Shown one piece after another: positions 7,039-9,292 of a stretch of DNA of 64,000 nt. The first letter of the stretch is position 1, and each line of letters begins with the position of its first letter. Source of the DNA: a virus. The stretch is taken from IMG/VR virus record IMGVR_UViG_3300046794_000505, positions 1-64,000 of that record. One strand, 5' to 3'. The position numbers were made by a program, and so were the translations under genes. Below the pieces are notes generated by a model. That model did not search any database and was not told the DNA's origin. It saw only the letters and a list, made by a program, of their open reading frames with translations.

Positions 7039-7190
7039 TTGATACCATCCGTTTTGGTTGAATTTTGGTGCAGATGGCTGGCGCTGAACTCCAGCATTCG
7101 TAACGTTCTAGTGGCTGATCGCTCTATCCACGTTCCGCTATGTACTGGATTTAAAATCCAGCTCTTGCGTATCAGTCTACGCATTTATCT

Positions 7191-7285
7191 GCATCGGTAA
7201 CCGCTCCAATCCCGCTGACGCCTTGAGCCAATCGTTTTACGGTGGCCTGTACTTGCGGTTTTGTGCGCTGAGCGGTTACCGATGC
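7191..7285 (-). repeat. Long-stem element 1 (16-bp perfect inverted repeat)
   Basis: Arms 7191-7206 and 7270-7285 are perfectly complementary and enclose a 63-base core containing GCTGACG on the plus strand near the left and TTTGTGCGCTGAG near the right. The outer ends GCATCGG/CCGATGC are shared with element 2. Confidence 0.85.
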
Positions 7286-7408
7286 AACCTCTTTCGAGGT
7301 AATCGGGATACAGAAGACCTTGAGCTATTCAACCACTACCGGGCAAGGGCCCCTGGTCCGTGATGACCGGACTCAAGTTCGTCTACTCGACGCAGCGCTC
7401 TCTCTTTC

Positions 7409-7521
7409 TGCATCGGAGTTTGATCTGTGACTACTGCTGACGTCTGCTTGCGGCTACCGGTGCCACCCGGAAATTTGTGCGCTCGGTCACAGCGTTTTCA
7501 TTCAGATCAAACTCCGATGCA
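7409..7521 (-). repeat. Long-stem element 2 (19-bp perfect inverted repeat)
   Basis: Arms 7409-7427 and 7503-7521 are perfectly complementary; an inner CTGTGAC/GTCACAG (7425-7431 with 7486-7492) continues the stem after a bulge. The core again carries GCTGACG and TTTGTGCGCT, as in element 1, so the two look like related RNA domains rather than chance palindromes. Confidence 0.85.
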
Positions 7522-7704
7522 GCCTGGTCACCCAGGTCATATCGGTGCAGTGATTCTGTATCCGAAGTAGGTCGGATCGGGATGCAAGCCCATTATGCCA
7601 GTCAGCCACCTATCGGCCTGTGTCACCCCCTCATGACGCGTTCGGGGTCTTACGCGGCGATCCAGACTTATTGAAAAAGATTCCAGGGTCGCATCTCTCT
7701 TTTA

Positions 7705-7779
7705 TGGCTGGCAATGGAGGATTCGAACCTCCGACTTCCCGGTTAACAGCCGGGCGTTCTACCGCTGAACTAATCGCCA
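7705..7779 (-). tRNA. tRNA-Asn(GTT)
   Basis: 75 nt with encoded CCA. Acceptor TGGCGAT/ATTGCCA pairs fully (one G-T), the anticodon loop is CTGTTAA (GTT), and the T arm is GGAGG-TTCGAAT-CCTCC. D arm contains TTCAGCGGTAGAAC. Confidence 0.93.
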
Positions 7780-7782
7780 ATT

Positions 7783-7857
7783 TGGTTGCGAGGGCTGGAA
7801 TTGCACCAGCGACCTTCGGGTTATGAGCCCGACGAGATACTACTTCTCCACCACGCA
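7783..7857 (-). tRNA. tRNA-Met(CAT)
   Basis: 75 nt with encoded ACCA end. Anticodon loop CTCATAA (CAT) on a CGGG/CCCG stem. Acceptor TGCGTGG/CCTCGCA has one T-T mismatch at the fifth pair, and the T loop is TGCAATT instead of TTCGAAT. It could be elongator Met or a lysidine-modified Ile(AUA) tRNA; the anticodon alone cannot decide. Confidence 0.88.
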
Positions 7858-8224
7858 ATAACTTTGTATTCGTGTGATCCCTGACCTGACGAGTGCATCA
7901 GGACGAGTGAGTTCTTCAACCAAGCCAAGAACCACGCGAATAAAAAGTGTGCCTGTCTTTCCAAGCTGCCAGCGACCCCTACTTACTGATCCCGCCATCC
8001 CACCACAGCAGGTCTATCAGTGTTCAAGGACGGTTCCCCGGGCGGAACACAATGAGATTGAACCCAGTACCGTACTGCGTGGGATTTTTAGCCGCCCTCT
8101 CCACGCCCTGACGTCCAGCTACCTAACTCTTCGTGGAAACAACACTTTGGGTCAGCCCTGCTGGCCGGGGTACTACCCTCAACTCTCAATCAGTGAGTGC
8201 ACAATAAAACAACGCGAGGATGAA
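7858..8224 (-). ncRNA. Candidate large structured RNA, 5' portion
   Basis: About 365 bp without a credible gene. Minus-strand helices include a junction closed by TATTCGCGTG/CACACGAATA (7867-7876 with 7933-7942, one mismatch) holding two hairpins, GTTCTT/AAGAAC (7911-7932) and CCTGA/TCAGG (7885-7902); GTTCC/GGAAC (8033-8048); and AGTA/TACT within CCC/GGG (8063-8083). Helix density matches the segment on the other side of the tRNA-Asn/tRNA-Met pair, so both may belong to one transcript with embedded tRNAs. Confidence 0.5.
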
Positions 8225-9292
8225 TTACAACCCCGCGTCGTTATCAAATACCGTTATTTTTTCATCGGTGGATCCGATAACCGTATTCCGGCCGTATTCC
8301 TCGGCGGCGGCCGTTATGGCAGCGTCCACTGTCTCATGGGATGGCATAGCGGCCACGGCGGCCAGATCGACATAGGACCCAAGAATCGGCACTTGATCTT
8401 GATCATAGAATTTCTTCAGAAATTCTTTGATGAAAAACCAGTACGCACCAAAATTCCGGTATGCCTGAGGGTCTTGGACCAACAATGCTCGAATGTTTTC
8501 TGCATATTTTGGGGGCGTCGCGATCTTGTGGACTATCTGTTCTTCCATGAGCTGATCAGTCTGCTCTGACAGCTGAACTTCGGCTGGTGGTTCAGTTTCT
8601 ACGATTGGCTCGACTGCCACCACTGGCTGCTCAATCGCTGGCTCAGGCTCGGTGCTGACTTCGTGCACAATCGGAGCAGCAGCGACCGGTTCAGCAGCTA
8701 GCAACGGCTCCTGCTTCTTCACCCCACGAATATGCCTGGCGATCACGGTCCCGTCCTTGCGGACATGCGGGGCTATCAGTTTATGGCTGATCAGGAGCGC
8801 CTTGATCATCTGCGGATCATTCTTGGTGGCCCGGACCTTCACCCGAAACTCTTCGATCGGCATGGCGATAATGCCGCCGAAGAAACGCGGATCATCGTAG
8901 TGGTTCAGGTAGGCCTGTTTCGCCTCTTCCATGCTGCCAAATCCTAGGAAGATTTTATCCTCATCGAAGACGTCCCAGTCTTTGCGCTTCATCTGGCGGA
9001 CGATATAGACCTCTGGCGCGGATTCGTCCGGGCCGACGTAAACGTCCACTGGATCACCGTCGACACCCAGGCTGCCGGTAATTTCCCCGTAGGCGTGGGC
9101 GAATTCGGTCCGCCATGGTTTGCCGGTTTCGTCGACGCCTTCGCGGATGGTCCCGGCCGGGTTTTCGATCACCAGATTGAAGCCGGCGAACTTCAGGTTT
9201 GTGGTATCGCCTTCGACTTGGACGCTGCCGCCAGTGGAGCTCAGGGTCTCCAGCGGCAGCGACTTGATCAGCAAATAAAGTGGCTCAGTCAT
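8225..9292 (-). CDS. Head-module protein with inorganic-pyrophosphatase-like domain
   Basis: 355 residues. The N-terminal half has the InPase-like pattern common in phage head operons: GKPWRTEFAHAYGEITGS, DGDPVDVYVGPDESAPEVYIV, DWDVFDEDKIFLGF, EEAKQAYLNHYDDPRFFGG. A Pro/Glu/Val/Ala-rich linker follows (about residues 195-250), then a C-terminal segment of unknown fold. Its start overlaps the end of the MuF gene by 8 bases. Whether it hydrolyses pyrophosphate is not known; such domains sit next to minor head proteins and may be processing or assembly factors. Confidence 0.8.
   Translation of the reverse strand: MTEPLYLLIKSLPLETLSSTGGSVQVEGDTTNLKFAGFNLVIENPAGTIREGVDETGKPWRTEFAHAYGEITGSLGVDGDPVDVYVGPDESAPEVYIVRQMKRKDWDVFDEDKIFLGFGSMEEAKQAYLNHYDDPRFFGGIIAMPIEEFRVKVRATKNDPQMIKALLISHKLIAPHVRKDGTVIARHIRGVKKQEPLLAAEPVAAAPIVHEVSTEPEPAIEQPVVAVEPIVETEPPAEVQLSEQTDQLMEEQIVHKIATPPKYAENIRALLVQDPQAYRNFGAYWFFIKEFLKKFYDQDQVPILGSYVDLAAVAAMPSHETVDAAITAAAEEYGRNTVIGSTDEKITVFDNDAGL

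Follow-up and report, generated by a model that had tools for sequence, protein, structure and literature searches.

A gene-free stretch within a phage tRNA cluster contains a core unit that almost certainly belongs to a conserved RNA family, one that is absent from Rfam 15 and that represents a widespread, uncatalogued family of phage RNAs. Comparison of its members shows that compensatory changes conserve a predicted fold, in which an outer helix encloses two hairpins (A and B) whose loops can pair with each other. It likewise shows that the middle segment between the hairpins is hypervariable and, judging from the combinations observed, swapped as a cassette between unrelated outer stems. 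The original prediction, that this tRNA cluster holds a structured RNA which may be of a new class, is thus supported by covarying homologues, and no Rfam family fits.

The gene-free region and its setting

The window, by which we mean the whole stretch of DNA analysed here, comprises 64 kb of a virus record that is 85,776 bases long. Between the end of a 355-aa gene at 8225 and the start of an HU gene at 7038 lies about 1 kb of minus strand without a convincing protein gene, as had been predicted, and the tRNA-Asn and tRNA-Met genes said to be embedded there are both present on the minus strand, with tRNA calls placing tRNA-Asn (GUU) at 7705–7779 and tRNA-Met (CAU) at 7783–7857. The HU-like DNA-binding protein gene (6760–7038, minus strand) lies directly downstream of the core unit; tRNA-Trp (6677–6752, minus strand) and, after it, tRNA-Ser (6454–6535) lie farther downstream in the same direction.

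Folding energies were compared with those of shuffled sequences. The minus strand of 7050–7702 has a z-score of −6.8 and the plus strand one of −5.6, and none of 20 shuffles folded as well. In 7860–8224 neither strand was more stable than its shuffles (z 0.06 and 0.33). The description of over 1 kb filled with stems is therefore overstated. The long stems themselves are present in the minus-strand fold, as hairpin M1 (CUGCAUCGGAGUUUGAUCUG...CAGAUCAAACUCCGAUGCAG, 20 bp, 7408–7522) and hairpin M2 (UGCAUCGGUAACCGCUC...GAGCGGUUACCGAUGCA, 17 bp, 7190–7286, directly upstream of the core), and so are the GAAA and GUGA tetraloops, at 7288–7299 and 7523–7536, respectively, on the same strand. That all structure is best on the minus strand agrees with homology and covariation, from which we take the strand assignment; by energy alone the preference is modest.

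Several other features of the neighbourhood deserve mention. The gene just upstream of the RNA region (8225–9292, minus strand) joins an InPase domain to a stretch similar to Ulx-like anti-restriction proteins, and a search of viral contigs for relatives of its product returned none. Between tRNA-Trp and tRNA-Ser lies an abiF-like RNA (6612–6660, minus strand) that scores 33.5 bits, the gathering score being 37. No Abi_2 protein was found in the 85.8 kb record, and the RNA may be an orphan antitoxin. An Rfam scan placed an RT-15 retron msr-msd RNA at 973–1163 on the minus strand (183 bits), followed by a reverse transcriptase (935–3, minus strand) that shares 87% identity with its counterpart in Pseudomonas phage Cruim01 and runs off the window edge.

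A conserved family of phage RNAs

BLAST searches with the non-tRNA part of the region gave weak matches only, several of which fell in unannotated gaps of 460–925 nt in the Pseudomonas phages phiPSA1, Medea1, Aurca01 and Jeremy; the related phage Cruim01 also has such a gap. The Aurca01 gap led to a motif of 20–25 nt that is present in 158 phage records from many genera, including P1, D3 and phages of Klebsiella, Erwinia, Acidovorax, Burkholderia, Aeromonas and Xanthomonas. Comparison by eye revealed a second motif about 50–95 nt downstream of the first and an outer helix enclosing both. The strict double pattern, GAATGCGCAGGCTGATGCGC and GCCGGAGATCAGCACCGGC separated by 60–90 nt, has at least 120 exact matches in IMG/VR and 10 in GTDB genomes. 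We found no paper containing the two motif sequences among open-licence papers.

A covariance model, R1, was built from 49 diverse phage sequences with the window left out. The resulting unit of about 120–150 nt consists of the outer helix, a GAAU link, hairpin A, a hypervariable middle of 60–90 nt and hairpin B, with loops A and B able to pair. Across these 49 sequences the outer helix covaries at all 10 of its pairs (155 double-change cells against 55 when shuffled, 0/500), and this helix had been left unconstrained by the search pattern. Hairpins A and B, on the other hand, are invariant in most of the 49 sequences because the pattern required them. Relaxed searches recovered variants of stem A in which pairing is kept, namely GCGCA/UGCGC, GCACA/UGUGC, GUGUA/UACAC, GCUAA/UUAGC and GCAUA/UAUGC.

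The canonical loop pairing is GCUGA/UCAGC. When the stems were held fixed, loop A was required to differ from the canonical form and loop B was left free, scanning returned seven loci, six of which have a complementary loop B (GGUCGA/UCGAC at four loci, GUGCGA/UCGCA at one, and GAUUGA/UCAGU at one, with one G–U pair), while the remaining locus has a single mismatch. Loci L171 and L119:591 provide additional cases of loop complementarity. These compensatory changes support a predicted pairing of loop A with loop B, which could take place within or between molecules.

In the window, the minus strand from 7200 to 7063 matches R1 over its full length (positions 1–138) with 63.4 bits and an E-value of 8.7e-16, to be read as rough given the short calibration, and the second-best match in the window scores 9.2 bits. 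The R1 alignment of this core unit (7063–7200, minus strand) gives an outer helix of seven contiguous pairs, UGCAGAU (7187–7193) with AUCUGCA (7069–7075), followed by a GAAU-like link and hairpin A (7167–7182), in which the stem GCGUA/UACGC closes the loop GACUGA. The variable middle (7096–7166) has 71 nt and contains a CUGGAUUU/AAAUCCAG hairpin; in hairpin B (7077–7095), the stem GCUGG/CCAGC closes the loop AGUUCAGCG. Relative to the family consensus, stem A (GCGCA/UGCGC) and stem B (GCCGG/CCGGC) each carry a compensated C–G to U–A change. The loops are complementary too, with UCAG of loop B (7087–7084) facing CUGA of loop A (7175–7172), which makes 4 bp against 5 in the canonical pairing.

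Some members have further structure next to the unit. A hairpin upstream of hairpin A is seen in L008 (P1; around 1914–1995), in L010 (around 1885–1990) and in L016, upstream of the core. Its tip is tRNA-like in P1 and Klebsiella phage KP591P3, with a T-arm-like GGTTCGAATCC and an acceptor-like stem; Kintu has a T-arm-like tip, and Jeremy a predicted tRNA (L007, 2898–2995). In P1 this upstream hairpin and the outer helix share sequence, the 3' strand of the former overlapping the 5' strand of the latter (L008, around 1990–2003 and upstream), so the two pairings compete, a possible switch. One genome in the order of G003 has a tandem pair of short units (L181, 964–1050 and 1501–1587, minus strand), each of 87 nt and equal in score, without a clear hairpin B.

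The remainder of the region

One syntenic relative, the related phage L194, was found. Its HU protein is 67% identical to that of the window, and the order of elements is the same: 5' domain (77% identical), tRNA-Met, a 48-nt block identical to the window's (7657–7704, minus strand), M1, M2, a core unit scoring 66.5 bits with R1, and HU. The two genomes differ in the interiors of M1 and M2 and in the middle of the core. When the middle of the region was aligned globally between the two phages, double changes showed no excess (27 against a null of 25.6) and M1 was misaligned; the stems of M1 and M2 were therefore compared directly. Both are preserved, M1 with five double and no single changes, M2 with four double changes and one single change, one bulged A being set aside. 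For the 5' domain (7860–8224, minus strand), a consensus fold of 92 pairs shows 11 double changes and no broken pairs, weak covariation seen in this one relative (null mean 6.6, maximum 13). Searches seeded with conserved blocks from the 5' domain and from the middle brought in no further contigs. Chance folding of a tRNA spacer was considered as an account of the region and is ruled out by homology and covariation.

The outer frame of M1 runs into GAAU, as do the canonical units of L085 and L122, and M1 gives a weak R1 match of 12.5 bits that spans the outer helix and the GAAU link. The frame GCAUCGG...CCGAUGC recurs in Pseudomonas phages, with stems of 15–20 bp, around differing contents: in Jeremy it holds a tRNA, in L085 and L122 canonical core units, and in phiPSA1, Medea1 and Cruim01 other sequences.

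Variable middles, distribution and genomic context

The 108 distinct units fall into 73 middle clusters at 85% similarity. The same or nearly the same middles occur with unrelated outer stems (for example L037/L053, L077/L118 and L079/L131), and a single outer stem, GTTGTGGT, is combined with 13 middles. A cis-antisense role of the middle was considered and rejected, because the surrounding locus shows no excess of complementarity to it and holds no long antisense match.

In one sample of 198 Enterobacteriaceae genomes, R1 detects the family in 18, one of which has seven copies. It also detects the family in 8 of 293 genomes from the order of Marinobacterium and in 6 of 250 from the order of Comamonas; among 246 genomes from the phylum of a Phycisphaerales MAG, it is found in that MAG only. 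P1 (L008) has three units, at 1990–2135, 2419–2531 and 2680–2815, between tRNA genes and tciABC. In D3 (L013), the annotated orf86 (1904–2218) overlaps the RNA core at 1988–2108 and is probably not a protein gene. In L162, about 650 nt separate a family unit from C4 antisense RNA and isrK (662–853, minus strand).

On the upstream side, units are enriched for CI-like repressor genes, which reach 7 of 49 in a single PHROG, and for Q-like antiterminator genes, which are spread over several PHROGs with at most 4 of 49 in any one. On the downstream side, lysis genes are enriched, and endolysin, holin and terminase genes occur there; neither enrichment is present among control ORFs of the same loci. 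An intrinsic terminator lies 10–120 nt downstream of 27 of the 105 units, often 12–30 nt past the core, against 0.4 in shuffles. Across the family there is no clear excess of sigma-70 promoters within 300 nt. In the window, no terminator was found between the core and the HU gene, and no sigma-70 consensus promoter upstream of the core. A tRNA gene is present within 300 nt of 8 of the 110 units, compared with 3 of 663 controls, and the tRNAs within 1 kb of units are on the same strand in 13 of 13 cases. The association is thus enriched, yet confined to a minority, and the tRNA-cluster setting of the window is real without being typical; a tRNA-bound function for the entire family is rejected on the same count.

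Relation to known RNAs

Beyond the tRNAs, Rfam 15 gave nothing above threshold in the gene-free region. GOLLD and ROOL, of which the region had been suggested as a possible member, are likewise phage and prophage RNAs that often lie near tRNA islands; they form cages, and the GOLLD linker sometimes contains tRNAs (PMC12286853). The conserved RNAs of GOLLD and ROOL are, however, far larger than the unit of 120–150 nt described here, and a search of 6000–8400 with their Rfam covariance models gave no match at E up to 10. Membership is thus contradicted by both unit size and model search.

STnc100/PasD (RF02076) shares with the new family the order of outer stem, GAAU, hairpin A, hypervariable middle, hairpin B, single C and outer stem, as judged by eye on STnc100 loci, together with the location in phages or prophages and the presence of several copies per genome. 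STnc100 differs in its hairpin sequences (hairpin B is CCGGG/CCCGG), in a loop–loop complementarity of only about 3 bp, and in having its own 5' leader and a terminator within the model. In 6000–8400 the STnc100 model found no match at E up to 10, its gathering score being 47 bits. RydB (RF00118) has a hairpin B that is almost unchanged (GCCGGAGAUAAGCGCCGG) and closed by an outer stem; it differs in its length of only 61 nt and in lacking both a clear hairpin A and a variable middle. RydB, too, had no match in 6000–8400 (gathering score 50 bits). Since the R1 and STnc100 models each fail to detect the other's canonical members, the link to STnc100 rests on the layout and on one bridging copy, the third unit of P1, which scores 33.9 bits with STnc100 (sub-threshold) and 23.4 bits with R1. 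On this basis, the new family is likely to be homologous, if distantly, with STnc100, PasD and RydB. In L202, an STnc100 copy is followed after about 120 nt by RydB (1317–1377, minus strand). STnc100 is expressed in EHEC, as seen by Northern blot (PMC5331693), and has a copy downstream of stx2 in Stx2 phages (PMC12370729), and its relative PasD was detected by Hfq RIL-seq in EPEC (PMC13192938).

The put RNA of HK022 is another two-hairpin phage RNA found at the start of early operons, and many family members lie just downstream of CI genes. Put RNAs, located downstream of pL and pR, work without a phage protein; put differs from the family in its length of about 70 nt, in its triplex beside the two stem-loops and in its binding to the zinc-binding domain of RNA polymerase, and neither loop–loop pairing nor a variable cassette is mentioned in its description (PMC9378689).

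Possible functions

Our preferred reading, which we hold tentatively and put just short of an even chance, is that of a trans-acting phage regulatory RNA, a scaffold displaying an exchangeable specificity segment, with a mechanism that we infer as follows. The minus strand from 8224 to 7063 would form a chain of 5' domain, tRNA-Met, tRNA-Asn, M1, M2 and core unit, probably sharing a transcript with the HU gene and additional tRNAs before being cut into separate RNAs, such that the core unit would be released from a tRNA-containing transcript by processing. The outer helix and the kissing hairpins would make up a rigid scaffold bound by a conserved host factor, and this scaffold would display the variable segment, the part that would confer specificity towards RNAs of the host or of competitors. 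In favour of this reading are the window's membership, the covarying outer helix, the loop complementarity, the hypervariable middles, the placement downstream of CI and Q genes, and the layout shared with STnc100, which is expressed and whose relative PasD came from Hfq RIL-seq. The terminators directly downstream of units argue for a stand-alone RNA in many phages. Weighing against the trans-acting reading, on the other hand, are the middle's lack of a long antisense match in its own locus, the window core's lack of a terminator or promoter, a link to STnc100 that depends on layout and one bridging copy, and the placement at operon starts, which fits a cis-acting role as well. Such a role would be that of a leader acting on RNA polymerase in the nascent transcript, in a put-like manner, to control terminator read-through or pausing at the start of early-left and late operons. 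Sites of the nut, put and qut type sit at just these CI- and Q-adjacent places, with endolysin, holin and terminase genes downstream of the family units, and near-invariant hairpins would suit a conserved host surface. A leader would, however, have no need for hypervariable, swapped middles, the units in tRNA clusters (P1, KP591P3 and the window) are not clearly at operon starts, and the architecture of put is a different one. The terminator that follows a quarter of the units is ambiguous here, as it could be the one that is read through. All in all, we consider a cis-acting leader unlikely.

A further reading is an anti-defence decoy, in which the whole chain of RNAs, with its tRNAs, would counteract host systems for sensing or cleaving RNA; the hypervariable, exchanged middles would then be under arms-race selection. 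The window region lies in a tRNA cluster and adjoins the gene with Ulx-like anti-restriction similarity, the abiF-like RNA without an Abi_2 protein is about 400 nt downstream, and phage tRNAs are reported to evade tRNA-targeting defences (PMC10264068, PMC11555353). Most family members, however, have no nearby tRNA, and the abiF-like RNA falls short of its gathering score; we hold a decoy to be distinctly unlikely. Exchange of middles and outer stems between phages, and the GCATCGG...CCGATGC frames with their different contents (among them the Jeremy tRNA and the canonical units of L085 and L122), could also reflect a mobile or recombination element that acts as DNA, with the hairpins as sites of cassette exchange and RNA playing no part. 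We regard this as improbable: downstream terminators and the shared strand of neighbouring tRNAs speak for transcription, the family has no linked recombinase, and ordinary homologous exchange within conserved hairpins would shuffle the segments identically. The least probable reading, and a very improbable one, is a GOLLD/ROOL-like giant RNA assembling into a multimeric cage. The size of the whole region, the tRNA cluster and the embedded tRNAs are in keeping with it, and the loop–loop pair could conceivably act between molecules; the negative model search and the small conserved unit speak against it, as does the finding that the remainder of the 1.1 kb recurs in only one related phage.

Concluding remarks

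Beyond the trans-acting reading for the single unit, the family as a whole may constitute a modular RNA specificity system common to unrelated proteobacterial phages, in which a near-invariant kissing-hairpin scaffold carries an exchangeable, fast-diversifying segment, with STnc100 and RydB as offshoots, strung together with tRNAs into an RNA arsenal in phages such as the present one; we rate this broader proposal at clearly less than an even chance. The hairpins, which hardly change, imply a conserved host partner, and the swapped variable segments imply shifting targets. The motif, present in the textbook phages P1 and D3 and in more than 100 others, seems to have gone unrecognised until now. 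It would tie the orphan sRNAs STnc100, PasD and RydB to one architecture, the function of which is testable in a laboratory phage such as P1.
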